NCBI GenBank assembly: GCA_951213105.1
Contig: OX578136.1
Location: 69,115,230-69,179,229 of the forward strand
From: Amaurobius ferox
Taxonomy: Eukaryota > Arthropoda > Arachnida > Araneae > Amaurobiidae
Direction: 5' to 3'
DNA: 64,000 nucleotides
The position numbers and the translations under genes were made by a program. The notes below the pieces were generated by a model. That model was not told the DNA's origin and did not search any database. It saw only the letters and a list, made by a program, of their open reading frames with translations. Shown piece by piece: positions 3,109 to 63,295 of the stretch (positions are counted from its first letter, which is position 1; each line of letters opens with the position of its first letter).

Positions 3109-3166
3109 GGACCCCCAAATAGTTGCTCAAGTCCTCGGACGAGTCGGACGGTCTGGGTCTTCAACA
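3109..3166 (+). repeat. Mini-element copy 1 (~58 nt structured repeat)
   Basis: This copy contains the family core: AAATAG, then an internal hairpin (arms around 3129-3140), then GGACGGTC and the conserved 3' end GGGTCTTCAACA. Its 5' stem strand (GGACCCCC) has decayed and no longer pairs fully with the 3' strand. No target-site duplication is evident, so it is probably an old copy. It sits in otherwise unassigned sequence (2,881-3,570). Confidence 0.7.
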
Positions 3167-18834: not shown

Positions 18835-19985
18835 TAATTTGTGGCAACAATTACAATTTAGCTATCGCAGATAAAATTTTGAGAGAAAAGAAAATGGAGT
18901 TGAAGCGAGAGCATTAGCGAGCTATGATTTCTATGATTTTAAAGTGGGGCTAAATCAAGAGGAATATCTTCAACGTCTACAATTAGCATATGGAAATGAT
19001 TCTCCATCTCGTGCTACTGTATTAGATGGTTTACAGAGTTTAAAAGAGATCAAAATTCTCTCCTGGATGAAAAACACACAGGAAGACCTTTGTAAAATGT
19101 AATCTTAGAAAATATATCGACTATTCGAAAACTGCTAATCGAAGATAATCGCTGTACCTACTAAATGATACAGAAGGAACTTGACATTAAATCCGCAGAT
19201 ATACATAACATTATTCATGAATAATTGCATATAAAAGTATTAGTTTGTTGTTAGGTCCCTCATAATTTAACAGAACACCAAAAAGCGGAGCGTGTCGGAA
19301 TCAGTAAAGCAATCCTAATATTACTCAATGATGGTGGACACAGCATTATTTATAAAATCAGAAATGGTGATGAAACGCACATAGCATTTTTTTGACGCTC
19401 CAACAGCTCAAGAAAGTAATGTATGGGTATTTGATGACGAACCCAAACCAACAATGGTGAAAAGACAACGAGCAATGAAAATGTTAATGTATGCCGTGCT
19501 CTTCAGAAGTACAGGTCTGGTCAAAGTCATGAAGCTAGAGGGACAGAAGACAGTTACAGCTAACTTGTACACCACTAAGTGTCTTCCAGATATTCTTCAG
19601 GAAGTGAATGTTAGGAGACTCATGCTTCACCATGACAGAGTATCTTCTCATTCAGCAAGAATGACAGGTGAATATCTTGAACAAAAAAACATCAAAGTGA
19701 TAGAACATCCACCCTATTCTCCTGATCTTGCCATGTTGAAGACCCAGACCGTCCGACTCGTCCTGAGGACTTAGAGTAACTAGCTGGACGGCCGGCTGAT
19801 CTTGCCATGTGTGACTTTTGACTATTTTTTAATCTAAAAAGAAAATACGTGGGCGTCGTTTTCATTCCGAAGACGAGATTGATGAGGCTATAGCATATAT
19901 TTATTGATTCCAAGAAATGGATGGCTTGAAGCATTTAATATTAGAAAAATTCGCCTACAAAAGTGAATTGATGTTGGAGGGAAGT
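18835..19985 (+). pseudogene. Mariner-family transposase pseudogene
   Basis: The N-terminal helix-turn-helix region is recognisable at about 18,900-19,080 (YDFKVGLNQEEYLQRLQLAY). The catalytic part is in the frame starting at 19,454, with KVMKLEGQKTVTANLY, LHHDRVSSHSAR (second catalytic Asp) and HPPYSPDLAM (start of the third-Asp motif). Directly after that Met the frame is interrupted by a 59-bp mini-element plus a duplicated 15-mer, after which CDF and the C-terminal part resume. Several other stops occur. Inverted termini were not located. It is a dead mariner inserted among the five-block array. Confidence 0.85.
19737..19795 (-). mobile_element. Mini-element copy 2 with exact 15-bp target duplication
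   Basis: On the minus strand it runs GGCCGTCC, AGCTAGTT, an internal hairpin with GTCCTCAGGAC, then GGACGGTC and TGGGTCTTCA. The 8-nt 5' strand pairs with the 3' strand, allowing one G-U pair. CTGATCTTGCCATGT flanks it on both sides (19,722-19,736 and 19,796-19,810). It landed in the mariner transposase between the codons of the PDLA-M and CDF motifs, which gives a clean pre-insertion reading frame. Confidence 0.9.
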
Positions 19986-21560: not shown

Positions 21561-24204
21561 TGCAACTATATTGTATACGTATTGCTTAATTAAAAATATA
21601 TAGTTATTATGCATTTCATCTTGATTTTGAAAGGGAGTGTTACGCATTATTTTACCTGAATAATTCCGTATATGTTGTTGTGGCATTAAATTTTCACTTA
21701 CTAAGGGCCTGTGCAAGATATTAAAAAATAACACGTGTAGAGATCAATACATCCAAATACAATATTTTATCTTGAATAAAAATTTTTGTTTACACATGCT
21801 TACAAGGACTGTTATTTATATACATATTATTTGCCATCGATAGCATTTTATTGTTCTGTATCATATTGCAAATTAAATTAGTATCAAATAATACAATTAT
21901 CAATTATTTGTCTATTTTGAGAAGACAGCCCATTTAATGTCGTTAGGGACATATACATAAGTTATTTTGATCTCACCGTAGTAGGGCTTGTAGATTCCAT
22001 GCGAAGATTAAGTATTCTAGGTGTTAGTAGTATCTGCTATCTTCTCAGCGCAAATTATGCTCAGCGCTAATTATGCTCAACCCTACTGAAGCTGTTCCTC
22101 CAGTAGGATTGATCATAATTAGCATTGTTTCTAAATTTTAGTTAAACCAGTGCACAAATCTCAGCAAGGAAATGTGACGGAATGAAAAATCGTATGTCCA
22201 TGTTAGGAACAGTTTTTACACTATGCCCACTGACCGTAATTGGTCAGTTGTTTTATATCTGTCAATGTGTAGGATTCTTAATGGCCCATCAAAGCAACCC
22301 CTCCCTTGTTCCCAGGGGAGAGTCGTCCTGATTTCACAGACCCTGAAGATATCGTAAATATTGAAAACTATATATTGCAAATTTTGCAACTACACAGAAA
22401 TGTCTTGCATTGAATCTCCAACATTGTAGTTATATGGACTAGTTGGCGAATTTATTACTATCAATCCTTCACTTACTCCTTTGAAAACTACTTATTTTCC
22501 CGTAACGTATGTGAAGATTATTTCGAATTTTAGAGGAAAAATAATTATTTCAGTTACTGAATGGGGCATCATTTGGTCAACTGTACATCGGTGGTTCGAT
22601 TTCGCGCTGAAACACTGAGAGTTTACACATCAAGATCACACACAGTTTTATCACAAAGAAGTCATTACTATTTGAAGTTTAAAAATTTTAAGTTATTAAT
22701 ATTATTACTTATTATTACTGTATTATTTAAGGACATTAAATGCCCTGTCTTCTCTCGAAACCGACAAATTATTGATATTTACATTTTTCATGTTAATTTA
22801 ATTGAGAATACGTTTTTAACAGGCGCATCGGATATATTTAACCTCGGAAGTTAGATGAAGTGAATAACCAAGGACAGAATAATACCGAATTCGAATTTTT
22901 CTCATGAACGGCAAACATAAAATAATGTGACAGTTTCGTTAAACAAGGTGCTATCATGTATAAAAAGCAGCTGAGAGGGAGGTCAAACATATCAGAAGTT
23001 TCGTGTCTGAAATCCGTATGAAGAAGATGTAATATAGAAAGGAAGATATCAGTATCTGAGTGGCTACGTAGATCAGTAGTTAAAAAAAGAAAATGTTTAT
23101 TTTATCAGTTGAAATATATACATTGTTTGATAAAATACGGTAAAATAAACAAGCAAATAGAAAATGAAAGCCGCTTTACTAAACAAAATATATGAGAACT
23201 ACTTCGAAAGCTTCTGGGGGATTAAAGCGAAGTTCAACTCAGCGAAAAGTGAATCCTATATTCGACTCATGGTTCGAATTAAGTAGCCCTTGGAGTGATA
23301 TTCTAAACTAAAGCTATTTTTTTTACCCTGGAGCAAGTTCTTTAAATTTATAATATTGAAACTGCGATTTGGAAAGGCAAAAACAACGATATTTAACTCT
23401 CTGTCTTTAATACGAAATATCGTATATAAAATGAAAGTGATGTGATGCGTGTCAAATATTTGATTTTGGGTTTTGACATGATGTCATATTGCGAGAGCGC
23501 TTGAATAATACATTTATGTAATACATAAGCATTTGTTTCGATGATGTCTGTGTGTTTGTGTTTGCGGTCTGTTTGTCTATCCGTCTGATATCTTTTGAAT
23601 CAATTGAGCCGATTTTGGATCATTCAATTTTGGATTTTGATATATGTCTTGTATCAAACATACTAAAAAATATTTTAAGAAGTAGATTTAAAAGAAGGGA
23701 AAATAAGAAGGGAAAATAAGAAGGGAAGGTGAATAAATCTTGAAAAATGAAAATGGCATACTTTGCAGAAGTTATATATCCAGCATTTAAGTCAACTCCA
23801 TGATTAGGTATATAAGGTATTTCTTTAACCACTGATGTCAGTACTGACGCTTTTTTGGTGTCGAAATAAAGAAAAACATGTATTAATACTGTTTGGAAAC
23901 CTCAACATTAAGGCTTGTATTCGACTATTTGTTAGCAGCTTATCGATGAGAATCTAAAACAAAGTGCGAATTTCATAAGAGCATCAACTCCGTGACACGT
24001 ATTATGTAGACTAAATACATTTTTGAACAAATATTTTTATATAGAGTAATGATTATTATGATTACAAATTTGCTTTTCAAGGACTTTCAATTGAAGCACT
24101 GTTTTTCCTAAAAAAAAGAGCTGCACATGTCTGTTTATTTTCCAAAACGTCAAATACGTGGGCATCAAACCGACGAAATTTCATGGGAGTAACTCATTTT
24201 ATTT
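21561..24204. other. Non-coding DNA
   Basis: No gene was recognised. An imperfect inverted repeat (CTAATTATG ... CATAATTAG, loop near 22,095) lies at about 22,067-22,125. A short direct repeat of AATAAGAAGGGAA occurs near 23,695-23,730. Open frames of 70-97 codons (22,561-22,854 and others) have no recognisable motif. Confidence 0.5.
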
Positions 24205-24257
24205 CGACTCAGACCGTCTGACTTATCCGAATACGTAAGATATCTGTTTGGATGGCC
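24205..24257 (-). repeat. Mini-element copy 3
   Basis: On the minus strand it reads GGCCATCC, AAACAGAT, a diverged internal hairpin, then AGACGGTCTGAGTCG. The outer stem still pairs through most positions, although two differ from other copies. The UCAACA tail has decayed and no flanking duplication is visible, so it is an older copy. Confidence 0.75.
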
Positions 24258-26646
24258 AGGACAGTGCCACTCAATTAAGATCAGAACACTATGCGGCGAC
24301 ATCTTCAGGAATCATACACTCCTGTGTTTGCCACGGAAGGACTTGGAAGGACTTTTCATCTCACAAATTTAACTTGTCCGAACTTAGAGTACACACGGGA
24401 ATTGAGAGCTTTTCATAGCTAGGAATTTTCCCCCTTCTCTTTTACTCCATGGTTCATAATATTATTTTCCATATGAAATCCCTTAACCATATCTGCTGAA
24501 CATATATGCTTGCTCTATATTGATATATTTGTGCATCAAACACAAATAAATCATTTTTTTTTACAATTATTCTGATTTTCTTTAAATGAAAATTCTTTTA
24601 TTTATTAGAATTTCTACATGGTAATTTTTCTATTTAGTTAACGAAAATAACTAAAATGCACGAACTTACACTTTAAATATATAGTATTATAACGATTATA
24701 TAACAGGATTTTCAAAACTGTAGTTCATTAACTGGTAAATTTGCTATAATAGCTTACAGTATATTCTTAGAAAATGAATTATAATAATCTGAAATACTTT
24801 GCCAAACGATGTGTGATAAAATAAAGAATTCGTTTTTTGAAAAGTTTGGTTGATATATTTTAGAAACCGCTTTTTTATTGGATGTTTTCAATTGCATTGA
24901 AGTTTAATTCAATAATTAAAGAAGGAATTAGTAAGAATTAAAAAAATACTGATTAAGACATATGAGGAAAAACTGAAACGAATTATTTCTTAAGTTCAAC
25001 ACAGTTTATATTTTTAGATAAATTCAGCGGTCGGATCTATATGATTTACATTGGAATAAAATGAAATGGTCAAATGTTCGGTAAGACGACTTATCCGAAT
25101 GATCAACTATTTACTAATTTTTTAAAGCGTATCTAGAAGCTATGATTAGGATACATTAAAAAGGTATAAAATTAGAATAGATTACTACTTCTACAAATGT
25201 TTGAATTTGAAATCCGCGTGGAGATGTCATGTCAGTAATATAACATTTCCAAATATGGACATGTAATCTACATTGTACGCTGCGCTGAATGTTACATTGT
25301 GGTCAAATGCATGAGAACAACATATTTCAATGGTGACAGCCATTTGTCGCCATTTGAATTACTATTCAATTTGAATAATGCTTTATAAGAGTAAGGTTGT
25401 ATAACTGCCTATATAGCAATGTCCACAAGCAGATAACACTGGTAGTGTAAAGATCTCACACCATTGTATAAAGGACTTATAGTTAGATCCGTCATATAAA
25501 TCATTCATGACCGTCCCTTGACCTCCAATGTGAGTGGAGCAGTTGAAGCCCAAATAATTTAAGAAATAGAGAAGAAGATGTACAGAGTCTCAGTGGACAA
25601 CATTGTGCAAAAGGGAATCAAGGGTCGTGATAAGAAGCGTGACTACTAACGCCTTAATTTCACTAAAGACCACAAGCGTTGAGGGGATGAATACAAGATT
25701 AAATTAAATAGCCAATAGGAAGGCAGTGTCTGCTGAAAAAAATTGATTTTTTTCGACTTCGACAAAACTCTTCCACTATGTAATTTGCTACATGTTTTGT
25801 CTATTTCTCTTTGTTGCAGAGTTCATTATAATAACTTTTCAAATTTGTCGATAGGGGGGGGGGCTGCAAATTTCTTTGTTCATGCTGGTATGATCACTTC
25901 ATTATAGATAGACCTAACGTATGCACTCATGGATTATGCCTTACAAACTTATTGCGGTGCTTAAGGAATTTCTTCAGAACTTTGTCGCATACGCAAACAC
26001 ATACACAGATTACAAGACGAAATTAAAAAAAATTAAGATCCCTCCATAATTTAATGCTTTGAGAAATTTTAGTTTAGTTCAAATTTCTAAATTTTTATCT
26101 ACCATGTATATTTTAATGCGATTTTATTTATGCCGCTATGAAAATTGAATGCATTTTCAGTCATAGTTAGAAGTTCCAGGAACATATCATATTTACACAT
26201 TTTCCCCAAAACTTTTTGAGATCTGAACGAATAAAAATGTATCACCATTTCAGTCACGTTTCCTTTTCTACGTCACCATATTCGTTTTGCGTTTCATCCT
26301 TTCCAAAAGCAATTGGGAATATATCGAGCCCCGAGGAAATGGGATGGCTAGAGATTATGTGTGACTGGATTATTTTTTAAAGTGCGTTGCATTTTAACAT
26401 TTTCCTTTACCTGGACTTTAGATTAAACTTTAGTTGCGAAAACTTGGATGTGGGCTGCGTATGGGTTGTGCAACATATACGAATGTTTGTTTTTTCTTCA
26501 TTGTATTGGGCTTTAAACATTTTTCCTGTGAGCAGTATTATTTGGATGTAAATAAAGATGGGATGTACTCCTCAAAACATTTGGTGTTAGAGTGTTGAAT
26601 AAATTAACATATATTTTCTTGTCATGCCGTCATAATTACTACACAC
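24258..26646. other. Non-coding DNA
   Basis: Nothing was recognised beyond simple AT-rich sequence, a G8-9 run near 25,854 and chance open frames. Confidence 0.5.
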
Positions 26647-28424: not shown

Positions 28425-31400
28425 ACTAGCAGCATACCCGTTCTTCGTACGGAGTATATAATATAAAGAAACTTGAAATTCATAATCATGCCCAAATTCT
28501 TATAGTATACTAAATGACGTGTTTAATCAAAATATTCTGTTAAAATATTTAATATAATGCTCCTAAAAAGAAGTTTAAGAATCTCTGTTCTCGCTATATA
28601 AAATTATCTTCATGGACATATCTGAAGAATAAAACATCTTGGACCCCTTATGTAAGCAAATATAAAAAAAAAATATGGAATTGAATCAATATATGCAAAA
28701 TAAAAGCGTTAAAATTGTATGGGACCCGTACTAATTATATACGCGAATATTAGAAAATATAACCTGTATTAGTAGATTACATGTATAAATTGAAAATACC
28801 AATAAACCCGTAATCTTTAAATCTGAAGACAGTCATTTATTCCAATATATGTCAAAATTAAAGTGCTAAAATTATATGGGAAGATATACACGTACTACTT
28901 ATAATGTCCGATTATTAGTAGAAGATTGCCCGTTTTGCAATATGAGTCACAAATATTTTTTGGTAAAATACAACAGACGACGTAATAAATTGAATATATA
29001 ATTAATCCCCTTAATCTTCATACCAGAAGACTGTACTTGATTCCAATATATATGCCAATATATGTCAAAATATATGCCAATATACCTGTACTACTTATAT
29101 TCTCGTAGGTTAGAAGATATACCCGTGCATTCCTAGAACATTACTCGTACAACGTACAATATGCGTGTGTCAGCAATTTTTGCCGCAATAAAACAATGGC
29201 GTAATAACTTCAAAATATCAATAATCCCTGAATCAATAATTCCGGAAAATATCAATAATAATAATGTTTAAACCTTAAGAGTATAATTGATATTATCCAG
29301 TCCAAAATGAAATGGCAATAAAATTTATTTTATATACATATCTTCATTATTCAAATCGGAAGGGATTTAATAAAAATCGCCTGCCGCATAAACACATTGG
29401 ATTTAAATCCGTTGCTAAGCGACATGATATCATTTGCTTCAAATAAATTGGTAGAAAAAATATCGTCTAAATAGTTATATTTCTATGGAACATTTGGCGA
29501 CAGTTTCGTCAAATTAGTGGGACTGTAGAACTGACAGTTCCACTTTGCGACAAATTGACGAAATATCATCACAATACTATCCCCTAACAAAAAACAATTA
29601 ATATCATTTATGTAGCGCAATTTTATCAATTTCAAGATATTTTTATAGATTTGAAAACATTTTTTTCAATTTGGTGACATTTTAAAAATTCGCTAAATGT
29701 ATTACTAAGTAGGATGGTTGGTCTGACAGATAAATGCTAACCAAACATCATTTCAGTACTCTCTTCTAACAAAACAAAAAAAAATTTCATTGATATGTAG
29801 AAGACCCAAGCCACACGACCGACCCGAAGGTTTATGGCAGCTGTTTGTGTGTCGTTTATATCAATTTGGCGACATTTCCGTCAATTTGGCAAAGTTTAAG
29901 AAAAGTTGTCAAATTAGCGATATCCCTCCAAATTCGTAGCTTTGAATTTGCAGATCTGAATGAAACATTCTTATCCCGTTTCAATATACTAAATGAAAGC
30001 ACTACAATTGTATTAGAAGATATACCCGCTCTACTCTTTTTCTGTTTCAACAATCGGCTATATGAATTTATTGGTGAACACAATATATGAGTTTAGTAGC
30101 TAAATACGATATAAGCTTGAAAACTCTTTGCCAAAATAAATGAAATAGATGTACGCAGTCAGCAATTAATATAATTAAAAGAAAAATCAAACCGTCCATT
30201 CATAAGATATACTTTTATATCCATTTATCCATTTATTTATTATTTAAATCGAAAAAAAATAATAAAAACATTAACAAACACATTTAATTTAATTGCGATG
30301 CCGAGCAACATGATATATCCTCCTAAAATGTTAAAATTTATTAACCACTAACAGCACACCCGTTATTCGTACGGAGTGTATAATTTAAAGAAACTTATAG
30401 TTCGCAATCGTGTGCAAATTCTGTTAAAATATTAAATTTATTGCTCCTAAAGAGAAGTTTAAGAATATATGTTCTCACTATGCAAAATTATCTTCACGAT
30501 CAGATCTGAAGAATAAAACATCCTGCCCCATTTTGTAAGCAAATTTACAGAAGAAAAAATAGGAATTGAATGAATATATGCAACCCCGTACTAATTATAT
30601 TGTCGCAGATCAGAAAATATGCCAATGTGTTAGTAGAAGATTACCCGTATTACAATATGCGTCTCAAAAATATTTGCCAAAATAAAAGAGGTGACGTAAT
30701 AAATTGAAAACATCAATAATATCCGTACTCTTTATACCAGAAGGTCGTAATTGATTCCAATATATGCCAATATATATCAAAACATATGTCAATATACCTG
30801 TACTACTTATATTCTCGTAGATTAAAAGATATACACGTGTATTTGTAGAAGATTCGTACAACATACAATATATGAGTTCAAACAATTTTTGTCATAATAA
30901 AATAATTGCATAATAACTTGAAAATATCAATAATCCTTGAATCAATAATCCCCGAAAATATAAATAATAATAATTTTTAAACCTGAAGACCGTAATTGAT
31001 ATTATCCAGTCAAAAATGCTATAAGAAAAATCAAATCGTTCTTTTCTAAAATATATTTTTATATCCATTTATTTATTATTCAAATCGAAAAAATAATTAT
31101 TAAAATTAACAGACAGATTTAATTTAATTGCGTTTCTGAGTAACATGATATAAGATAGAATCTTATAACATGTTAAATATGTTATGTCTTATAACATAAA
31201 CTGCGAAATTAAATAACGATTTTGATTTCTCTATACTTCTCATTGTTCCGTAAAAGCTTGTTTTAAATAAACCATGAACCATGGAGATAGATTTCCCCTT
31301 TAAATCATGTTTCAAACAATTCCTTTTTTCAGAAAGTGACTAATTAACGCAAAAAATCTCCCATCAAACTCAGAGATTAAATTTTAATTCACTTTCAAAC

Positions 31401-42188: not shown

Positions 42189-42192
42189 TTAT

Positions 42193-43745: not shown

Positions 43746-43748
43746 TTA

Positions 43749-45287: not shown

Positions 45288-45292
45288 ATGAA

Positions 45293-45685: not shown

Positions 45686-46147
45686 ATGAAAGGTGGTGAT
45701 ATTGTTGGACGGTTATAAGATAAAATAAATCCTCCAGAAATGCATTTACCAGGATATCAATATTGTGGTCCATTTACAAAATTAGAAAAAAGATTAAAAA
45801 GAGGTGATCCTGGAATAAATAAAGTTGATAAAGCATGTAAAAAACATGATATTGAATATAATAAAACAAAAGATACAAAAAAGAGACATGTTGCTGATCA
45901 AGAATTAATAGATGATTTAAATGCAATACAAGATCCAACATTTCGAGAAAGATTAGATAGAGGAATTATTAAACCTATTATTAAAGCTTTTGGGTTAGGA
46001 ATATCTCCTAATATGTATTATGTCAAGTGTAAAAAGAAAACCGAAACTAAAAATTATTATGAAACTACTTCTAAAAATAATAAACCAGTTGGTAAAGGTA
46101 TTTGTACAATTTGTGGAAGTAAAAAGAATACTTTTTTAGGAATTTAA
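45686..46147 (+). pseudogene. PLA2: Phospholipase A2 domain fused to zinc ribbon
   Basis: The 153-codon frame begins at ATG in TAAATAAATG. Codon 11 is TAA (45,716-45,718). The part from 45,740 shows the secreted-PLA2 core as in parvovirus VP1: LPGYQYCGPFT (calcium loop, though the usual GPGN reads GPFT) and KACKKHDIEY (catalytic His-Asp), then ADQELIDDL. Residues from ~110 form YYVKCKKKTETK ... ICTICGSKKNTFL, a zinc-ribbon-like domain that in other Polintons I know as a separate small protein; the first Cys of its first pair reads Tyr. PLA2 would help virions leave endosomes. Confidence 0.75.
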
Positions 46148-47151: not shown

Positions 47152-47189
47152 AGATAGATGGTATAATAAAGGTGATCCTTCATTAATAT

Positions 47190-47235
47190 GATGATTTAAC
47201 GGGGTGGGATTTATCACCCCCCCCGATAAATATGA
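47190..47235. other. GGGGTG/CACCCC hairpin after the integrase gene
   Basis: GGGGTG and CACCCC flank GGATTTATC, just downstream of the integrase stop. A similar G-rich hairpin lies near both termini (37,396 and 53,273). It is a possible transcript-end or replication structure; no function is shown. Confidence 0.45.
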
Positions 47236-47265
47236 ATAAAACTGTTATTAAAACGTAGTAAATAA

Positions 47266-47508
47266 ATGAATGTTAACTTTTTTGACGGTGTTGAAATGGT
47301 TGAATCGTTTGATATTTCAGATAATGAAGTTTGAGATAATAAAGTAGCGCATAATTTAAAGATGAAATAAATCTATGATTCTGAAGAAGAATATTTTTAT
47401 GTTATAGACTATGAGAGTTTAAAACAAAGATATAAAAGTAGAATTAGTTATTTTAATCGAATAAAAAGGAGGTATAATATTACTCAAGAAGTTGAGGAAA
47501 TGTTTTAA
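47266..47508 (+). pseudogene. Small acidic Polinton ORF, decayed
   Basis: ATG in context AGTAAATAAATG. The 80-codon frame has in-frame TGA (codon 23) and TAA (codon 35). Readable parts include FFDGVEMVESFDISDNEV and YFYVIDYESLKQRYKSRISY. Similar composition may continue in shifted frames up to 47,681 (KVEKKYEKIWNEFQKMF). No homologue is recognised. Confidence 0.4.
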
Positions 47509-47681
47509 AATTTTTAGATTTTATGTATTATGAGAAATCAGTTAACTATTATTATTTTATGAAAAAGATTTGTGGATATTTTTAATATTGAAAATAAAAT
47601 AAAGGTCCAAAGACTTTGTTCTAAAGTCGAAAAGAAATATGAAAAAATCTGGAATGAATTTCAAAAAATGTTTTCTAATAA

Positions 47682-47930
47682 ATGGAGCTAACAAAAAAGT
47701 GTATACACTGTTTGACTATAAAATCAGTAAATGAGTTTTATACATATCATAGAAATGAAAAAATTTATTTCCAAAGTCATTGTAAATGTTGTGATTCCAT
47801 AATAAAATATAAAAAATTTAATTGTGAATGTGGTATACAATATACCTATACACACAAAAAGAGACATTTAAAAAATATTTATCACAGTAAGCATCTTCCA
47901 GGAAAAATTATTTCAAAAAATGTTTCCTAA
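47682..47930 (+). CDS. Small zinc-binding protein of the Polinton
   Basis: 82 codons, ATG in CTAATAAATG. The first half has KKCIHCLTIKSVNEFY ... SHCKCCDS, a CxxC...CxxC zinc-knuckle pattern often seen in phage and HNH-associated small proteins; the second half has CECG and HLKNIYHSKH, a C2H2-like finger. It starts MELT, exactly like the next frame at 47,934, and the ~34 bp around the two starts are duplicated. It could be a transcription or DNA-binding accessory protein. No lesion. Confidence 0.55.
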   Translation: MELTKKCIHCLTIKSVNEFYTYHRNEKIYFQSHCKCCDSIIKYKKFNCECGIQYTYTHKKRHLKNIYHSKHLPGKIISKNVS

Positions 47931-50900
47931 TAAATGGAGCTCACCTTAAAGTCAAAGACTATTAATGAACTTAGAAAAGGAGTAAAACTATTGAATATTA
48001 AACAACCTAAAGGCTGTAAGAAGGATGATTTAATTAGATTATTAATTAAATATATCAGAAAAACAGGTGAATATAAACCTGTTTTAATGGATTTATTAAA
48101 TCTAGATTTGTCAGCATACTTAGATAAAAAGAAAAAAATATTTATTGAAAAACCTCAAAAACGTAATAAAATTAAGAGAATTTTTGATTCTTTTAATTTA
48201 AGATTTGATAAAAATAGTAATGATTTTAAATCTGTAATTTTCTATCCTGAAGAAAAGTTACTTGAAGAAAATCTTGAAAAGTTATTTACAGAAGATAGAA
48301 AATGTCGTATATGTGGTAAATATTACGAACCTGAAGATAACGAAAAACATATAAAGAAAGACTTAATGATTAAAAGATCAAAACAAAAGAGAAAATGTAT
48401 TAGTTGCGGTATATATTATAAACATTTAGAAAATCACATATCAAGTCGAAAACATAAAAAAGCATTATAAAATGATGAAGGTAATGTAGAAATTAAGGAA
48501 TATGAAACTGCTTATATATCTAGATTAAGAGCATATAGAATTAATAATTGTAATAATATTAAAATCCCTCTAGAATTTTTAGAAGAGAAAAGAAAGGTTG
48601 TAATAAAAAAAATAAAGCAAATTTTGGAAGAATTTAATGGTATAAAGGTAAATTTTAAATTGTTTTGTTTGTATAAATTGAATGAAGAAATTCAAGAATT
48701 TACATTCAAAACTGAGAATCAAATTATATTAAAATCTAATGATTTACATACTTTTTATGATTATGTTATTGACAATTTAATAAATGAATCTGATGATTTT
48801 ATATCAAAAGGATCTGGTTGGAGTCTTGAAGAAATAAAATTTATGGAATTGTGAATAAATAAGTATCAACCCTTGAGAGGATCAAGTTATATTGATTTAC
48901 CTGGAAACATTAAATCTAAACAAGCTATAATAAATGTAAAAAATAAAGATAATAAATGTTTCATGTGGTCTATATTATCAGCAATTCATCCTGTAAAAAA
49001 AGATCCTCTAAGAGTGTCAAAATATGAGCAATATAAAGATGAATTAAATTTTAAAGGAATTGATTTTCCTGTTTCATTAGACAATATTAAGAAATTTGAA
49101 AACTAAATAATATATCTGTAAATGTTTATAGTTATGATGGTTCAATTTATCCACTTAGAATAACTAACAATAAATTAGAAAAACATGTAAACTTGTTTTA
49201 TATGAAAGATGAAAAAAATGATCATTATTGTTGGATTAAAAATATGAATAGTTTGATCAGATCACAAATTACTAATCATCGTATATTTTTATGTGATAGA
49301 TGTTTAAATCATTTTTATTCTGAGGAAAGATTAAAGATACATGAGGAATACTGTAAAGAGAAAGAAGCTGTCACAATTAATATGCCTAAAAAAGATGAAG
49401 TTATTCAATTTAAAAATCATGAAAGAAAAATGAGAGTACCATATACTATATATGCTGATTGAATCTCTCTTACCAAAAATTGATACATGTGAGCAAGATC
49501 AAACTAAATCATATACTGTGAAATATCAATAACATGTAGCAGATGCATTTTGTTATTATATCAAATATGAAAATGAATACTTTAAACCTCCTGTTGTTTA
49601 TAGAGGACCTGATACAATCAAAAAGTTTGTATCTATGTTAAAAGAGGATACTCTTAAAATTGAAAAAATTATAAAAGGAAAAACTAAAAAATATGAAAGT
49701 ATCAAATCAATGATAGAGTTCGATGAAAATCATTATAATAGAACTAATATTTGTCATATATGTGAAAAACAAATCTTAAAGGATGAAAAAGTAATTGATC
49801 ATTGTCATATAACTGGAAAATATAGGGGGTCCTGCTCATAATGTTTGTAATTTAAATTATCAAATTCCAAAATTTATTCCAGTAAAAATCCATAATTTAA
49901 CAGGTTATGATTCTCATTTGTTTATAAAAGAACTTGGATTTGATAAATCAAAAATAGATGCTATACCTAATTCTGAAGAAAAATATATATCTTTCAGCAA
50001 AAAAATAGGAGGTATGAAATTGAGATTTATTGATTTATTTAAATTTATGTCTTGCAGTTTAGATAATTTATAAAAAAACTTGAGACCAGAGAATGAAATA
50101 AATAGATGTCCTCCAAAAATACGGAAAATGAAATATATTAAATACTTAAAATCAAAATTTAGAGAGACATCATTACATTTTCCTGATGATAAATTAGATC
50201 TCATTACAAGAAAAGGTGTATATCCTTATGATTATATGGATTCTAGAGATAAATACAAAGAAACAGAATTACCTTCAAAAGATAAATTTTATAATAAATT
50301 GAATGAATGTAATATAACTGATGAAGAATATAAACATGCTCAACGTGTTTGGAAAGAATTTAATATAAAAAATTTAGGTGAATATACAGATTTATACGTT
50401 AAAACAGATGTATTAATTTTAACAGATGTATTTGAAAATTTTCGAGATGTTTGTTTAGAAACTTATAAATTAGATCTGGATTGGTATTTTACTGCTCCTG
50501 GTTTATCTTGGGATGCAATGTTAAAAATAACAAATGTTAAATTAGATTTATTAAATAATTATGATATGATTCTCATGATAGAAAAGGGTTTAAGAGGAGG
50601 TGTTTCACAATGTTGTAATAGATATGGAAAAGGAAATAATAAATATATGAAAAATTATGATAATAGTAAAGAATCCAATTATTTAATGTATTTAGATGCT
50701 AATAATTTATATGGATGGGCTATGAGTCAATATTTACCATATGGAGAATTTAAATGGTGTAATCGCGATGAAATAAATTATGTTAAACGTGAAGCATATA
50801 ACCATAAAATAAAAGATGATTCAGAGAATGGATATATATTTGAAATTAGTTTAAGATATCCAAAAGTATTACATGATTATCATTCAGATTTACCATTATG

Positions 50901-51036
50901 TCCTGAAAATAGAATTCCTGAAAATTCGAAACAAGGTAAGTTATTAACAACTTTATACGATAAAGAGAAATATGTAGTTCATTATAGAAGTTTAAAACAA
51001 TATTTGAAAATGGGTTTAAAGGCTGTAAGAGTACAT

Positions 51037-51082
51037 TGTTATTGTTATTGAGACCCAGACCGTCCGACTTACCAGAAAGGTA
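51037..51082 (-). mobile_element. Mini-element copy 4, 5'-truncated, exact 16-bp target duplication
   Basis: GGCTGTAAGAGTACAT occurs at 51,021-51,036 and again at 51,083-51,098 within the PolB gene. Between them lie 46 nt that, on the minus strand, read TACCTTTCTGGTAAGTCGGA, then CGGTCTGGGTCTC and an AATAACAATAACA tail. The 5' stem strand is missing, as in 5'-truncated retroposed copies. Removing the insert and one duplicate restores continuity around this point of the coding sequence. Confidence 0.92.
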
Positions 51083-51654
51083 GGCTGTAAGAGTACATAG
51101 AGTATTACAATTTAAACAATTGAATTGGTTGAAAAAATATATAGATTTAAACACTGAAATGAGAAAGAAAGCTGCTAATGATTTTGAGAAAGATTTTTAT
51201 AAATTGATGAATAATTCAGGATTTGGAAAAACTATGCAAAATATAAGAAAACGAATCGATGTAAGATTATGTTGTAATTTTGATCAAGTTAGAAAATTAA
51301 TTGCTAAACCTAATTTCAAATGTAGAACTATTTTTGATGAAAATTTGGTAGCTGTTCACATGAAAAAAACAAAACTATATTTTAATAAACCGATTTATGT
51401 TGGATTGAGTATATTAGATTTATCTAAACATTTAATGTATGATTTTCATTATAATGTCATGAAACCGAGATATAAGGATAATATTAAGTTATTATATATG
51501 GATACAGATAGTTTTATATATGATATTAAAACAGATGACTTTTATGAAGATATGAAGTCTATGTTTGATTATTTCGATACATCTGATTATCAAGTAAATA
51601 ATCTATTTAATATGCCTAGATGTAATAAAAAAGTATTAGGTAAAATGAAAGATG

Positions 51655-51702
51655 ATTCTTCCATAATCACACCGCTATTTAGCGGTGTGATTATGGAAGA
51701 AT
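51655..51702. repeat. Perfect 22-bp palindrome inside PolB
   Basis: ATTCTTCCATAATCACACCG-CT (51,655-51,676) is followed by ATTT and then its exact reverse complement (51,681-51,702). It lies between the polymerase motif C region and the conserved EEFVGLRSKMYS stretch, where related proteins usually have a short acidic turn. Confidence 0.95.
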
Positions 51703-52068
51703 TTGTAGGTTTAAGAAGTAAAATGTATTCAATAAGAATAGAAAAACAGAGTGTTGAAGAATATAATAATACTGAAGAAGATAAAGAAAACCATAAAAAA
51801 TTTGAGACTAAGAAGTCTAAAGGAACTAAGACTAGTACCGTTAAAAACAGAATATCATTTGAAGATTATAAAGACTGCTTATTAAATAAAAAAGATCAAT
51901 ATAGAAACACAGAATTTAATTAGAAGTAAGAAACATGAATTGTATTCAATTCAAGTGAACAAGATAGCTTTATCAGCAAAAGATGATAAAAGATTTATAT
52001 TAGAAGATGATATGAATACTAGAGCTTTAGGACATTATAAAAATGTTTCTAAAAATCATTCTATATAA

Positions 52069-52305
52069 ATGGATGAGTGCTTAGGTGATATTCGAGCATT
52101 AAATTTTACAAATTCTGAAGAAATTTACTATTTGACTTATCTTTGTAAAAAATTTTATGATAAATATGATCATACTAAAAAACCATTATCAGAAAGTTTT
52201 CAAAGGTTGACTGTATTAATTGAAAAGGAAGAAAATGAAGATATTAAATTGAATGGATTAGGAGTTTTATATGTTATTTCAAAGAACTTATTCTATTATG
52301 ATTAG
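52069..52305 (+). CDS. Small Polinton ORF after PolB
   Basis: 78 codons, ATG in CTATATAAATG, directly abutting the PolB stop. Sequence features: FTNSEEIYYLTYLCKKFYDK and PLSESFQRLTVLIEKEENED; helical and acidic, no recognised motif. No lesion. Position suggests translation by reinitiation or from its own TATA-like start context. Confidence 0.5.
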   Translation: MDECLGDIRALNFTNSEEIYYLTYLCKKFYDKYDHTKKPLSESFQRLTVLIEKEENEDIKLNGLGVLYVISKNLFYYD

Positions 52306-52323
52306 CAGGGTATATTTATAAAA

Positions 52324-52405
52324 ATGAGTGCATCTATTTATTTAAAAAAATAGCAAAATGGCCCACCTGGCCCTAGGGGCTGATCTGGAAGTCTGGTTCC
52401 AACAG
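52324..52405 (+). pseudogene. Possible remnant of a second collagen/fibre-like gene
   Basis: ATG at 52,324 (context TATAAAAATG) opens a frame starting MSA, as in the fibre-like gene at 40,679. After a TAG it continues NGPPGPRG up to a TGA. The Gly-Pro-Pro triplets and shared N-terminus suggest a degraded collagen-like protein, but the match is short. Confidence 0.3.
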
Positions 52406-52479
52406 CTGTTTTAGAATTCTAGAACCAGAGTTCCAGAGCACCCCTTGAACCAGGCCCACTGGCCAAGGAAAGGACAATA

Positions 52480-52709
52480 TAAACATATAACATGCAGGAC
52501 ATAGAATCCACAAGATTCAACCCGCCACTTATTATATTTCGATGATTGCCACTCTTTTGGATCAACGACAAGAGTAGCTGACGTCATTTTATGACTCCTG
52601 TTCAATAAACCATCAACCCCGTATTGATTAACAACCTGGGAGAGGTCGGGATTTGAACCTGGGGCCTAGATGTTTATAGCCCCGTACGCTACCTTTGAGC
52701 CATGGGTAC
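52480..52709 (-). repeat. tRNA-derived SINE inserted in the Polinton
   Basis: On the minus strand from 52,709: GTACCCATGGCTCAAAGGTA (A-box-like), then GGTTCAAATCCC (B box, near perfect) followed by a body containing GAACAGGAGTCATAAAATGA. It lies between the last Polinton gene and the right terminal repeat. The 3' boundary and target duplication were not resolved; the body may continue to about 52,350. Confidence 0.65.
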
Positions 52710-53084
52710 AAGAGATATGTTGAACAATTCATTAATATAACCTTTACATTGAAAACTAAAAACAATTTTAAACGAGTCATTTTTGCAAGAATACTTTAAA
52801 AGATCAATAGTTTTAATTTATCTGATCGAAAAATAGCGAAAATAATGTTTATAAAACGTTATAAACTACTTCATTTATAAAGTATTAATCATCAGTAGGC
52901 AGTTTCATTGTTAACTGTTTTATACTGTTTGATGCTGCCATCTAGCAAAAGAAATCTGCAATAAGTTAAATAAATATTATTTTTTCTTCACGCTACGTAC
53001 TACGTTTTCTCTTCACGCTACGTCATCGCTACTTCTACTCAAAAGTAAAAGCCACTTCCTCTCGCAGTGTAGCTGATAAAAAAA

Positions 53085-53237
53085 ATCAAGGTCGCTTTAT
53101 TTTCGCTTCTTAAATGGAAGAGTTCTGAACGAATATGAATTAGATAAAGCTTAATTATTTTTCAGTGGTCGCTTTATATTCGGTCGGTAATCAAGGTCGC
53201 TTTATTTTCGCTTCTTAAATGGAAGAGTTCTGAACGA
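53085..53237. repeat. Direct duplication at the inner edge of the right terminal repeat
   Basis: The stretch starting ATCAAGGTCGCTTTATTTTC (about 53,087) and running to ATTTTTCAGTGG is repeated from about 53,188, the second copy running into the terminal repeat. Its GAATTAGATAAAGCTTAAT part is also the end of the gene at 37,427, so part of the inverted repeat is present three times. Confidence 0.8.
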
Positions 53238-53857
53238 ATATGAATTAGATAAAGCTTAATCATTTTTCAGTGGGGGTGTGTCACCCCCCACTATAAAATT
53301 ATCATATCTTTTTTATTAAACATATGTTTTGTAATTCATAATGATTTCATTCATATTTTTATAATTCTTTTTAATTTTATAAAAAATGTTTAGATTTAGT
53401 TAAACATTTTCTATTAAATATATGGGGGGTCTCAACTCCACCCTTTAAAAACAGGGGGGCTTCCATTCAGGTCCTCTTTTTTCATGCATTTATTTTAAAT
53501 AATTCACTGCATACTTTTAATGTCTAGCTTTTTAACTAAAAAAGTTCACTGTTAAAAGGTATATATACACATTTTTAATATATTAGAGGACTTCCATTCA
53601 TTTGGAGGTCCTCTTTTTTCATGCATTTATTTTATATGTCTAGCTTTTTAACTAAAAAAGTTCAGTAATTCACTGTTAAAATTTGGTGTTAATGTAAAAA
53701 AGGTATATATACACCTTTTTTAGCTATAAAATCCTGTTTTTAATATTAAAATGGATCGAGACCTTTTTTTTCATAAAAAAAAAATAAATAAGCTATTAAA
53801 TCATGTTTTTTAGTGTAAAAAGAGTCTGTGAGCTCATACAAGGGTATGGATACTACT
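53238..53857 (-). repeat. Polinton right terminal inverted repeat
   Basis: Reverse complement of 36,824-37,448 with a few substitutions (e.g. the terminal ATCCATTCGCTTG versus ATCCATACCCTTG) and small indels. Confidence 0.92.
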
Positions 53858-56283: not shown

Positions 56284-59200
56284 ACTAGCAGCATACCCGT
56301 TCTTCGTACGGAGTATATAATATAAAGAAACTTGAAATTTACAATCATGCCCAAATTCTTATAGTATACTAAATGACATGTTTAATCAAAATATTCTGTT
56401 AAAATATTTAATATAATGCTCCTAAAAAGAAGTTTAAGAATCTCTGTTCTCGCTATATAAAATTATCTTCATGGACATATCTGAAGAATAAAACATCTTG
56501 GACCCCTTATGTAAGCAAATATAAAAAAAAAATATGGAATTGAATCAATATATGGAAAATAAAAGCGTTAAAATTGTATGGGACCCGTACTAATTATATA
56601 CGCGAATATTAGAAAATATAACCTGTATTAGTAGATTACATGTATAAATTGAAAATACCAATAAACCCGTAATCTTTAAATCTGAAGACAGTCATTTATT
56701 CCAATATATGTCAAAATTAAAGTGCTAAAATTATATGGGAAGATATACACGTACTACTTATAATGTCCGATTATTAGTAGAAGATTACCCGTTTTGCAAT
56801 ATGAGTCACAAATGTTTTTTGGTAAAATACAACAGACGACGTAATAAATTGAATATATAATTAATCCCCTTAATCTTCATACCAGAAGACTGTACTTGAT
56901 TCCAATATATATGCCAATATATGTCAAAATATATGCCAATATACCTGTACTACTTATATTCTCGTAGGTTAGAAGATATACCCGTGCATTCCTAGAAGAT
57001 TACTCGTACAACGTACAATATGCGTGTGTCAGCAATTTTTGCCGCAATAAAACAATGGCGTAATAACTTAAAAATATCAATAATCCCTGAATCAATAATT
57101 CCGGAAAATATCAATAATAATAATGTTTAAACCTGAAGAGTATAATTGATATTATCTAGTCCAAAATGAAATGGCAATGAAATTTATTTTATATACATAT
57201 CTTCATTATTCAAATCGGAAAGGATTTAATAAAAATCGCCTGCCGCATAAACACATTGGATTTAAATCCGTTGCTAAGCGACATGATATCATTTGCTTCA
57301 AATAAATTGGTAGAAAAAATATCGTCTAAATAGTTATATTTCTATGGAACATTTGGCGACAGTTTCGTCAAATTAGCGACATTTTAAAAAATCGCCAAAT
57401 TTATCGCCAAGTGGGACTGTAGAACTGACAGTTCCACTTTGCGACAAATTGACGAAATATCATCACAATACTATCCCCTAACAAAAAACAATTAATATCA
57501 TTTATGTAGCGCAATTTTATCAATTTCAAGATATTTTTATAGATTTGAAAACATTTTTATCAATTTGGTGACAATTTAAAAATTCGCTAAATGTATTACT
57601 AAGTAGGATGGTTGGTCTGGCAGATAAATGCTAACCAAACATCATTTCAGTACTCTCTTCTAACAAAACAAAAAAAAATTTCATTGATATGTAGAAGACC
57701 CAAGCCACACGACCAACCCGAAGGTTTATTGCAGCTGTTTGTGTGTCGTTTATATCAATTTGGCGACATTTCCGTCAATTTGGCAAAGTTTAAGAAAAGT
57801 TGTCAAATTAGCGATATCCCTCCAAATTCGTAGCTTTGAATTTGCAGATCTGAATGAAACATTCTTATCCCGTTTCAATATACTAAATGAAAACACTACA
57901 ATTGTATTAGAAGATATACCCGCTCTACTCTTTTCCTGTTTCAACAATCGGCTATATGAATTTATTGGCTAAACACAATATATGAGTTTAGTAGCTAAAT
58001 AAGATATAAGCTTGAAAACTCTTTGCCAAAATAAATGAAATTGATGTACGCAGTCAGCAATTAATATAATTAAAAGAAAAATCAAACCGTCCATTCATAA
58101 GATATACTTTTATATCCATTTATCCATTTATTTATTATTTAAATCGAAAAAAAATAATAAAAACATTAACAAACACATTTAATTTAATTGCGATGCCGAG
58201 CAACATGATATATCCTCCTAAAATGTTAAAATTTATTAACCACTAACAGCACACCCGTTATTCGTACGGAGTGTATAATTTAAAGAAATTTAAAGTTCGC
58301 AATCATGTGCAAATTCTGCTAAAATATTAAATTTATTGCTCCTAAAGAGAAGTTTAAGAATATATGTTCTCACTATGCAAAATTATCTTCACGATCAGAT
58401 CTGAAGAATAAAACATCCTGCCCCCTTTTGTAAGCAAATTTACAGAAGAAAAAATAGGAATTGAATGAATATATGCAACCCCGTACTAATTATATTGTCG
58501 CAGATCAGAAAATATGCCAATGTGTTAGTAGAAGATCACCCGTATTACAATATGCGTCTCAAAAATATTTGCCAAAATAAAAGAGATGACGTAATAAATT
58601 GAAAACATCAATAATATCCGTCCTCTTTATACAAGAAGGTCGTAATTGATTCCAATATATGCCAATATATATCAAAACATATGTCAATATACCTGTACTA
58701 CTTATATTCTCGTAGATTAAAAGATATACACGTGTATTTGTAGAAGATTCGTACAACATACAATATATGAGTTTAAACAATTTTTGTCATAATAAAATAA
58801 CTGCATAATAACTTGAAAATATCAATAATCCTTGAATCAATAATCCCCGAAAATATAAATAATAATAATTTTTAAACCTGAAGACCGTAATTGATATTAT
58901 CCAGTCAAAAATGCTATAAGAAAAATCAAATCGTTCTTTTCTAAAATATATTTTTATATCCATTTATTTATTATTCAAATCGAAAAAATAATTATTAAAA
59001 TTAACAGACAGATTTTATTTAATTGCGTTTCTGAGTAACATAAGATAGAATCTTATAACATGGTAAATATGTCATGTCTTATAACATAAACTGCGAAATT
59101 AAATAACGATTTTGATTTCTCTATACTTCTCATTGTTCCGTAAAAGCTTGTTTTAAATAAACCATGAACCATGGAGATAGATTTCCCCTTTAAATCATGT

Positions 59201-59635
59201 TTCAAACAATTCATGTTTTCAGAAAGTGACTAATTAACGCAAAAAACCTCCCATCAAACTCAGAGATTAAATTTTAATTTACTTTCAAACGATTTTCAAG
59301 CTTTTCGTTTGGATAAACCACGGAGTTAGGGAGTAGAACTCCTAGGAAAAAGTTCCGTTTTTCATTAATATCTCGACAACCCCAGGTCTTAGAAACTCGA
59401 AACTTGGACAAAATTTATGGGGGGATATTTCAAGGCTATTCACCAAATTTCATTAAATTCGGTTCAGCCGTTTTTCCGGGACGATGAGACAAACGAAAAT
59501 TTCGTTTTTTACTAATATCTCGAGAACCACTGGTCGTAGGAACTCCAAACACGGATATAATTTTAATTGGGGCTATTTCTGGGCTACCCACAAAATTTCA
59601 TCAAATTCGGTTCAGCCGTTCTCCCGTGATGGTGT

Positions 59636-59697
<62 letters not shown>

Positions 59698-59720
59698 TTT
59701 TCATTTTTATTTATATAGAT
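56284..59720 (+). repeat. 3.4-kb dispersed repeat R3, copy 2
   Basis: Nearly identical to 28,425-31,815 in the same orientation. The clearest difference is ~36 bp present here near 57,377 (a 'gcgacattttaaaaaatcgcc' block) and absent from copy 1, and a longer (GACA)n tract here (about 59,641-59,697). The flanks of the two copies differ, so the boundaries are real element ends, not a larger duplication. Confidence 0.9.
57694..57747 (-). repeat. Diverged mini-element relative inside R3 copy 2
   Basis: Counterpart of 29,800-29,853 with two substitutions. Confidence 0.5.
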
Positions 59721-60890: not shown

Positions 60891-60955
60891 GTTACTTTCT
60901 TGGTATTTTAATTTTTTAATGTTTTAATTCCCTTTTGTCACACTAGGTGGAGTTC

Positions 60956-61014
60956 GGCCGTCCAAATAGATACTCAAGTCCTCAGGACGAGTCGGACGGT
61001 CTGGGTCTTCAACA
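60956..61014 (+). mobile_element. Mini-element copy 5, full-length
   Basis: GGCCGTCC, AAATAGAT, then ACTC-AA-GTCC-TCA-GGAC-GAGT as an inner hairpin, C, GGACGGTC, TGGGTCTTCAACA. The outer 8-bp stem pairs completely, counting one G-U. Flanks share CACTAGGTGGAGTT / CACTTGGTGGAGCT (60,941 and 61,013), an imperfect target duplication of ~14 bp. Confidence 0.88.
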
Positions 61015-61189
61015 CTTGGTGGAGCTATTTTATTGGGTTTTCTCGTTTAGTCATTTTCTGCTTGTCCATCTCACATTCAACGTTCTTGGCTTGTTTGCAT
61101 TGAAAAAAGAAATCCAAAGATTTCAGAAACTTACGTCTGCTTAATTAATCACTTATCCTTTTTTGCGCCTCATTTTACTCCGTGATCTA

Positions 61190-62107: not shown

Positions 62108-63209
62108 ATTAAAGTTATGCTATATTATTATAAATTCATTTGATGTTTTCCGTCTAATTAAATTATGGAAACTAGTTTGCTATTACAAAGCTGTCATAAA
62201 TAGTAGATAATGTGGAAATAGCCAAAAGGAGAAAAATCAATAAGTTTTTTAAAACTTTTAGTCACTTTCATGTTTTCTTTTCAAAATAAATATTGTATTG
62301 TAGAATGATTTTATTGCTCCATTATTTTGAAAGTGAAAGTTATTAGGAAATAATGAAAAAAACTTGTAGGTTTTCAAGAAAGTTTTAATATAAGCTCTGG
62401 AAAGACTAACCATTATAATTGCTATGAAAATGTAATTTAATTTAAATAAACAATGTTTCCATTTGCTTGAGACTGTTTTCCGTTGCATCAAAATTATTAA
62501 AGTTTTATTTGTTATGCTGATTTATTTATTATACTATATCTTTCTGAATAATTTTTCGTTGTGATAATAAATTATTCGCCATTATAGTCGAATGTTAGAT
62601 TGTTTGTTGCCGAGCTTTACTTTTAATACTTCGTTGGTGATATTTAAAAATAGTTCAAGAATTTTAGAAATAACAACTGCACATAGTTTAAGCCAGATAA
62701 AATGAGGTTGTAGCACTAAATTAAAATTTTTGTAGAGTTCAAATTCATTCTGGGATAAAAGTTGTAGTATAGGATAATTATATTCTATATAAAAGTTGTC
62801 TAAAGCAGTAATTATCAATCATTTTTTCTTGACGGAGTCCTTGAAATATTTCGTAAAAACTTTTAGATTCCCTTCTTGACTGACACTGAGGCTTTTTATA
62901 AATTTATATACCAGTCAAAGTTTAACAAAATTTTGTAGAAATACCCTTGTACTTTTGTCCAAAAACACCCTGAAGCAATTTCTTTAAAAACATATTAGTT
63001 TCAGAAATTACCAAATGGAGTGGTGAAAACGAATAAAATGTGTATAATACACAAATTATAACAGCCAATTTCTGATTTTACGGAGCCACAAGGCATATTT
63101 TATGTTATTCGCAATTGTAGGAAAACTGTGCTGAATAATAACTGCCCCATTGCTGAAAATGCTAGTCGTGGAGATGTTCATTAAAAGCCATTACACATAT
63201 ACTGCTGCT
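62108..63209. other. Non-coding DNA
   Basis: No gene or repeat end was recognised. Confidence 0.5.
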
Positions 63210-63280
63210 CCCGACCGTCCAAACAGTTACCTTACACCTTTCTGGTAGGTCGGACGGTCTGGGTTTCAACAACAACAACA
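63210..63280 (+). mobile_element. Mini-element copy 6, full-length with (AAC)n tail and exact 15-bp target duplication
   Basis: ACATATACTGCTGCT lies on both sides (63,195-63,209 and 63,281-63,295). The insert reads GACCGTCC, AAACAGTT, an inner hairpin closed by ACCT/AGGT and containing ACC-TTTCT-GGT, then C, GGACGGTC, TGGGTTTCAAC and (AAC)n. Relative to copy 5 both the outer stem and the inner stem changed on both strands and still pair. This is the youngest-looking copy. Confidence 0.93.
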
Positions 63281-63295
63281 ACATATACTGCTGCT

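Follow-up and report, generated by a model that had tools for sequence, protein, structure and literature searches.

A LINE tail hairpin of about 60 nucleotides, shared with a SINE and also found inserted alone, in the spider Amaurobius ferox

Introduction

A structured sequence of about 60 nt in the genome of Amaurobius ferox proved to be the common 3′ end of a LINE, which encodes an endonuclease, a reverse transcriptase and an RNase H, and of a 289-nt tRNA-type SINE. This tail hairpin also moves alone, as was read from 35 of 45 LINE-type copies of one genome. The explanation that best joins these findings, to which we give a probability of about 0.86, is that a LINE 3′ recognition hairpin, shared by a SINE, was inserted by itself; the binding of the hairpin by the LINE protein, its mobilization in trans and the source of the ~62-nt template are the parts that we infer. 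A tail-only hairpin of this kind would be among the smallest retrotransposed units known, and the natural insertions indicate that a 60-nt hairpin with a CAACA end can suffice as the template for the whole insertion cycle of a LINE.

Units in the window

A preliminary description of the window, that is, of the whole 64,000-nt stretch of DNA that was analysed, had named eight copies of one structured unit. All eight were confirmed, and they fit a single profile with a typed type A sequence and the 63,210 copy as nhmmer queries; no others were found in the window. A covariance model built from seven of the eight units recovered the same eight, the copy at 51,037 with an E-value of only 0.0029, and one further hit at E=1.5; this model replaced a loose scan of the window for bulge, stem and tail, which gave 165–214 hits per Markov control. 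On the sense strand the unit consists of GRCCGTCC, AAAYAGNT, the inner hairpin, C, GGACGGTC and TGGGTCTTCAACA. Two forms that differ in the inner stems were recognized, type A (3,109; 19,737; 60,956) and type B (51,037; 63,210; the old copy at 24,205), with 29,800 and 57,694 as a third, diverged form.

63195..63209, plus strand: 5′ copy of the 15-bp target-site duplication ACATATACTGCTGCT (from the sequence)
63210..63280, plus strand: type B (SINE-type) tail-only unit (nhmmer, duplication scan, covariance model)
63281..63295, plus strand: 3′ copy of the 15-bp duplication (from the sequence)
60940..60952, plus strand: 5′ copy of the 13-bp duplication ACACTAGGTGGAG, with one mismatch to the 3′ copy
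60953..61014, plus strand: type A (LINE-type) tail-only unit, its final ACA common to unit and duplication (nhmmer, covariance model)
61012..61024, plus strand: 3′ copy of the 13-bp duplication, ACACTTGGTGGAG
51021..51036, minus strand: 3′ copy (sense) of the 16-bp duplication ATGTACTCTTACAGCC
51037..51082, minus strand: type B unit cut inside the hairpin, with an (AAY)n tail, inside a Polinton DNA-polymerase-like frame
51083..51098, minus strand: 5′ copy (sense) of the 16-bp duplication
19722..19736, minus strand: 3′ copy (sense) of the 15-bp duplication ACATGGCAAGATCAG
19734..19795, minus strand: type A tail-only unit inside a mariner transposase gene
19796..19810, minus strand: 5′ copy (sense) of the 15-bp duplication
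3109..3166, plus strand: type A unit with a degenerate 5′ stem arm and no readable duplication (nhmmer, covariance model)
24200..24399, minus strand: old 5′-incomplete SINE copy with a type B-like hairpin (24206-24258) at its end
29796..29856, minus strand: diverged member with changed stems and no duplication, its 5′ stem arm perhaps partly target DNA
57690..57750, minus strand: copy of the 29,796 insertion, carried by a duplicated 3.3-kb segment

The unit at 63210..63280 runs from CCC through the 8-bp outer stem, the AAACAGTT bulge and the inner hairpin to TGGGTTTC(AAC)n, and its match to the SINE is confined to the final ~73 nt. Exact duplications were confirmed at 19,737 and 63,210 (15 bp each) and at 51,037 (16 bp, or 17 counting one more shared base), as was the imperfect one at 60,956 (13 bp, one mismatch), in keeping with the three exact 15–16-bp duplications and one imperfect duplication described earlier. 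The duplication scan of the window units read none at 3,109, 24,205 or 29,800. In a control, 35 of 3,000 random window places scored 15 or more, and we take many of the longest random-place duplications to be simple repeats.

The number of independent events had been overcounted by one. The copies at 29,800 and 57,694 both lie inside a duplicated segment of ~3.3 kb (blocks 97–99% identical, flanks 98.5% and 90.5%) and so represent one insertion; relatives of the flanking sequence without the unit lie at 61.9 kb and 185 bp downstream. The copy at 24,205 belongs to a SINE piece of 200 nt (24,200–24,399, E=2.7e-18), whose 3′ end it forms.

When the 19,737 unit and one duplicate are removed, the mariner gene reads HPPYSPDLAM-CDF-stop-LFFNL and aligns straight through to Mos1. 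The Polinton frames at 50074-51048 and 51084-51920 both hold the duplicated AVRVH, at the end of one and the start of the other; the two frames were read apart and not joined, the name polymerase was given by eye, and Pfam returned no family for either. The 5′-truncated copy is the 51,037 unit, which begins within the hairpin and is nevertheless flanked by a perfect duplication of 16 bp. We know of no DNA-transposon mechanism that gives a 5′-truncated copy with a perfect duplication.

Other elements in the window

The Polinton/Maverick element (36894-53788) has long inverted repeats at both ends, and its polymerase gene is broken by the 51,037 unit. Its frames, some of them named by eye, are capsid-like, protease, ATPase-like, integrase and polymerase-like, and it also holds a leucine-rich-repeat-like gene with 66-bp repeats (37731-39086). 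The best named relatives of its capsid-like protein are spider proteins (48–52% identity, with one unnamed protein at 57%), and the patterns used found no relatives of the Polinton in viral contigs. A Penelope-like reverse transcriptase (8046-10745, minus strand) is accompanied by an inverted second fragment (~6640-7190, plus strand), has a 142-bp tandem duplication inside and lies downstream of a frame that, by eye, is GIY-YIG nuclease-like. An antisense frame in 33434-34170 is Tc1-type transposase-like by eye, with no Pfam match to the frames tried. Internal repeats and a (GACA)n terminus mark the duplicated 3.3-kb repeat (28425-31800 and 56284-59700). The Pfam searches covered 20 of the 97 window frames of at least 75 aa, and a scan of the window for reverse-transcriptase motifs found only the Penelope-type frames and two isolated YLDD.

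Conservation of the fold

The ~60-nt unit is real, and covariation supports its fold. Thirteen of the 16 proposed pairs were predicted unprompted by RNAalifold. In 85 matches to the covariance model, from 70 sources with 60 distinct rows and in an alignment fitted to that model, 91.0% of pair cells were standard pairs; 12 of the 16 pairs had changed on both sides in the same 60 rows, a value reached by 3 of 500 shuffles. Two-sided change cells in this set numbered 116, compared to a shuffle mean of 39.8 with none of 500 shuffles reaching 116, and slid structures were only 22–43% paired. In a seven-row MAFFT alignment, 8 of 16 pairs had changed on both sides (20 of 500 shuffles) in 19 cells (0 of 500), and “further pair types” showed no excess over shuffles (462 of 500). 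The inner stems alone gave 4 of 8 pairs (110 of 500 shuffles) and 11 cells (0 of 500). For single copies the gain in folding over shuffles was modest (z −1.7 to +0.6), and at 29,800 the outer-stem arm overlaps target sequence and speaks weakly for the fold. A further form, with the outer stem GGCCACTC/GAGTGGTC, was seen in L009 and L017.

The remark of the preliminary description that pol III boxes are missing stood, as six patterns searched in six copies gave nothing convincing against shuffles; for internal A and B boxes in tail-only units, the lowest P was 0.05 among 36 tests on the six copies. No match to the units, ribozymes included, was found in Rfam.

The LINE and the SINE that carry the tail

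The type A tail was found on two LINEs of the same genome. One of them, L035, encodes an endonuclease (PF14529, APE-like), RVT_1 and RNase_H, has the exact type A tail as its 3′ terminus and lies between the copies of a 15-bp duplication, ACATAAACAACATTA, at TTAC|ACAT. The other, L036, has RVT_1 and RNase_H, with a variant tail at its end and the site TTAC|ACACTGCTCTAAA. A third locus, L034, has only the last stretch of the LINE 3′ region in common, and no reverse-transcriptase motif was found in the 8.4 kb fetched upstream of it. LINE copies of 2.8 and 4.7 kb lie between duplications. A search for the LINE family gave 27,660 first-look candidates, of which 115 were scored; the open frame of 1,193 aa without a stop is present in at least 20 copies among those listed, and four of the seven open-frame LINEs listed on contig C1 are followed, ~1.2 kb downstream and in the same orientation, by an exact type A core.

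In folding, the terminal hairpin is joined by a second one just upstream in the 3′ ends of L034, L035 and L036, with a short pyrimidine linker between them; in the minimum-energy fold of L035 the linker is also paired, and L036 does not surpass shuffles in folding (z −0.6). Among named proteins, the best relatives of the LINE reverse transcriptase come from spiders (40–51% identity). Another very abundant LINE type (L037-L066) shares ~27–33% identity with the tail-bearing LINE in the reverse transcriptase, and RVT_1 of all kinds gave 59,917 first-look candidates in the genome.

The SINE lies upstream of type B tails in L007, L008, L018 and L031, and measures 289 nt in the last. It has a tRNA-like head with A and B boxes recognized by eye, the B-box-like sequence being GGTTCGATTCC. 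The head matched the Rfam tRNA model over its full length at 20.8 bits, below the cut-off of 29, and ARAGORN called no tRNA in five SINE loci. The tail is common to the LINE (type A: L035, L036) and the SINE (type B: L031), with the same fold. Most type B cores carry more of the SINE, with 29,660 matches having CTTCCC upstream, in a search whose core was shortened by 4 nt, compared to 34,656 cores, and truncated type B copies end at scattered places, several of them inside the hairpin. In L078 (G000:C1:20375430-20375610), 12 letters like the start of the SINE head are fused to 18 nt of LINE linker and a type A tail, which looks like a template switch.

Abundance in the genome

The genome searched comprised 3,564,777,782 bases (3.56 Gb) in 276 contigs. 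The exact type A core (28 places) had 2,199 matches and the exact type B core (33 places) 34,656, with none for the reversed-pattern controls of both. Six 10-kb stretches set beforehand held seven members at E≤0.1, compared to eight in the 64-kb window, and this 60-kb sample would correspond, with a large error, to some hundreds of thousands of members, old and young, in the genome. The exact unit patterns were absent from the viral and prokaryote collections, and a looser 17-mer found three viral contigs, which scored as chance.

Insertion of the tail alone

Thirty loci (L004-L033) were the best matches to one 60-nt query without flanks, taken from 1,106 first-look candidates of which 40 were scored, and are therefore young and mostly of one sub-variant. 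They were classed by reading, with up to two mismatches or a one-base gap allowed per duplication. The gap from the duplication to the stem of the main unit was 0–3 nt in 20 of the 30 and 6–9 nt, with a TTTCCC-like linker, in five; LINE-like 3′ sequence lay upstream in two (L009, L029), and three were unreadable in microsatellite (L005, L010, L011). Among the 15 exact type A places on contig C1, ten have no LINE sequence upstream. In seven of these ten a duplication is visible 2–6 nt before the stem (L074, L075, L079, L081, L083, L086, L088), in L085 none was seen, and for L082 and L084 the sequence fetched is too short to show one. The LINE-attached places on C1 are L073, L076, L077 and L087, in which the LINE runs through all of the ~109–116 nt fetched upstream, and L078, with 18 nt.

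In total, 35 of 45 type A units lack a LINE or SINE body and 32 have a duplication 0–9 nt before the stem, a tail-only fraction that may be too high and is not a genome-wide estimate, as the TTCCC-context class (396 of 2,199), which may be richer in LINE-attached copies, is absent from the 15 places on C1, where L073 had been chosen for the LINE lying upstream. The TTCCC context was itself tried as a separator of tail-only from LINE-attached type A copies and failed, since the young LINE has a different linker. The seven matches in the 60-kb systematic sample included no tail-only type A unit; five were SINE copies, one was cut inside the hairpin and one continued into LINE-like sequence.

The copies are not all pieces of a single longer repeat with conserved flanks. 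Duplications occur at many loci outside the window, and in most type A copies read they directly abut the 60-nt unit. The suggestion that the unit is the end of a larger element holds for several copies (24,205, which is a SINE, and the LINE- and SINE-attached copies of the genome), but not for most of the type A copies read. Of the origins first offered, a minimal LINE-recognized RNA fits best, as the unit is the terminus of a LINE and most type A copies read consist of the unit alone.

Target sites and their re-use

A table was made of 35 typed sites occupied by the LINE, the SINE or a type A or type B unit, a list that favours clear duplications, and 34 of them were found. In nearly all of them the 5′ copy of the duplication starts with ACA (A in 33, C in 33 and A in 31 of the 34 at +1 to +3); C or T stands at +4 in 31, C at −1 in 27 and T at −3 in 25, giving the consensus TTAC|ACAY at dispersed sites. 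The RNA itself ends in ACA, so that annealing between primer and tail may strengthen this signal. An ACAY preference is also known for the Waldo elements of the R1 clade. Duplication lengths, by reading, were 14 bp in 14 cases, 15 bp in ten, 13 bp in seven and other values in three, with a range of 12–17 bp; 31 of the 34 thus fall at 13–15 bp with a mode of 14, most of them from SINE or tail-only insertions and two from LINEs. The LINE is the likely machine, because the tails, the target motif and the duplication length are shared. Target-primed retroposition, proposed at the start, is supported by the duplications of 12–17 bp, the shared target TTAC|ACAY, a truncated copy with an intact duplication and the occupied sites in the mariner and Polinton genes.

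Insertion sites were also re-used. In 12 of 38 sources, at least two same-strand units share the 3′ flank (9 of 12 letters), compared to 20 of 2,996 cross-locus pairs in the null, with L010, one of the 12, lying in repeats; L007, L018, L020 and L033 have the look of shared flanks by eye. Five different members (type A, SINE and three diverged) occupy ACACTTATAGTATC in L017, and five type A units follow each other ~73 bp apart in L030. The order of divergence is mixed, the best match being the 5′-most unit in L017 and the 3′-most in L030. Eight units among the 15 places on C1 are flanked by a SINE tail at an ACACC site, including five of LINE type (L073, L076, L077, L078, L087), for which only 9–16 nt of 3′ flank were seen. 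An exact type B core precedes L076 by 343 bp, and L008 and L018 are further cases of a SINE-tail site. The same SINE-tail letters 3′ of the five LINE copies suggest that the young LINE may target its own SINE.

Proposed mechanism and alternatives

In the proposed mechanism, the LINE protein would bind the tail hairpin and nick DNA at TTAC|ACAY, where the primer end would anneal with the end of the RNA (..CAACA). Copying of the RNA into the site would produce duplications of ~14 bp, and slippage on the tail would give (AAC)n. A hairpin copied alone with 0–9 nt of 5′ linker would leave a retroposon of ~62 nt ending just below the outer stem, the tail-only unit being presumably mobilized in trans by the tail-bearing LINE. 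The type A hairpin would be the recognition form of the LINE and type B the covarying form of the SINE.

Three sources of the ~62-nt template were ranked. A cut or nuclease-trimmed tail RNA comes first, as a tentative preference short of an even chance, followed by a stop of reverse transcriptase before the upstream hairpin, which is possible, and then by a self-standing 62-nt source transcript, which is rather doubtful. Cutting in single-stranded RNA would give 5′ ends in the linker, as would a stop at the upstream hairpin. A linker length that follows the sub-variant in four loci would fit separate source RNAs, with L026 as an exception. Were the tail-only unit to come from a source transcript of its own, we would know of no smaller self-standing retroposon family.

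The tail-only units could instead be LINE and SINE copies of the ordinary 5′-truncated kind, namely the shortest in a continuous spectrum of truncation. The identity of the tails to LINE and SINE 3′ ends, the LINE copies of 2.8 and 4.7 kb between duplications and the units cut inside the hairpin (51,037; L023, L033, L071) agree with such a spectrum. A continuous spectrum is difficult to reconcile with the ends on C1, which are bimodal (ten of 15 without LINE, four running on, one at 18 nt and none between), or with the 20 of 30 loci ending 0–3 nt from the stem, a peak that so far is sharp at the hairpin base in 45 copies, and this explanation was judged unlikely. Slightly better placed, if still improbable, is a family of independently transcribed small RNA genes of ~62 nt, a true minimal SINE mobilized by the LINE in trans. 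It would account for the sharp 5′ end and for the 6–9 nt linker of all four TTGCTC/GGATGAG loci (L014, L016, L023, L032), a small sample. Internal pol III boxes were not found, however, L026, of another sub-variant, has a linker of 7 nt too, and both TTACTC sub-variants also occur on LINE 3′ ends (L009/L034, L029/L035).

Neither a host RNA nor a DNA transposon explains the units well. A processed host small RNA, snoRNA- or miRNA-like and turned into pseudogenes by an unrelated LINE, was among the origins first considered, and a discrete stem with a 3′ overhang is what such an RNA would have; with no Rfam match and the RNA being the 3′ end of the LINE (L035, L036) and SINE of the same genome, it is highly improbable. 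An outer inverted repeat of 8–11 bp near both ends recalls the terminal inverted repeats of a foldback DNA transposon (MITE), whereas the duplications are of no fixed length (12–17 bp), the (AAC)n tail varies in length and the identical tail sits on LINEs. This candidate was rejected as next to impossible, being refuted by 51,037 and L071, which lack the 5′ repeat and still have duplications. Our preferred reading remains a LINE recognition hairpin, shared by the SINE and inserted alone.

A more tentative idea, possible though we would not favour it, is a three-level chain of parasites on one hairpin, with the LINE, the SINE that copies its tail and a free-living tail-only retroposon of ~62 nt, in which the SINE tail is also a landing site for the LINE and the tail-only units. 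If true, one motif would serve as the ticket in RNA and the target in DNA.

Comparison with known systems

Compared by database name, the named proteins nearest to the LINE reverse transcriptase include several labelled R1DM or R1 and others labelled jockey. A 62-nt RNA together with a defined target (TTACACAC) would be a convenient substrate for target-primed reverse transcription in vitro, and repeat libraries with a length floor would miss units of ~60 nt. A literature search by title, with subscription papers mostly outside it, found no tail-only family of LINE hairpins and no serial SINE insertions.

Stringent-type LINE/SINE pairs (eel UnaL2, zebrafish ZfL2-1/ZfL2-2) likewise have a shared 3′ tail with a stem-loop and a repeated 3′ end, and in the present pair, too, the tail stem-loop is conserved as a structure. 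The zebrafish ZfL2 proteins read the loop of the tail and need the stem as a stem whose sequence is exchangeable (PMC4176376). Covarying stems, with a bulge and an end that are mostly constant, fit such loop reading with an exchangeable stem, and at least three stem sets with a near-constant end offer a natural sequence series for how a LINE protein reads its RNA. Unlike in UnaL2 and ZfL2, the hairpin here has an 8-nt bulge and a second stem, and the tail alone makes up most of the type A copies read.

R1 elements make duplications of 14 bp and stand in tandem arrays with this duplication between neighbours, new copies entering the duplication of an older one (PMC2718515). The present family resembles R1 in its ~14-bp duplications and its serial insertions separated by the duplication, and differs in having an RNase H domain and in using dispersed TTAC|ACAY sites and SINE tails instead of the 28S rDNA. 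The tailless retropseudogenes of therian mammals are likewise very short retroposed RNAs with ends in single-stranded regions and with duplications (PMC5322556). They lack the 3′ end and come from RNAs of the host mobilized by L1, probably through internal priming, whereas here the 3′ end is constant and the 5′ end is cut. Finally, the 289-nt element resembles the tRNA-derived SINEs with LINE tails in its body, its LINE-like tail and a head that, judged by eye, has tRNA-like A and B boxes, and the tail-only units differ from these in having neither head nor body.
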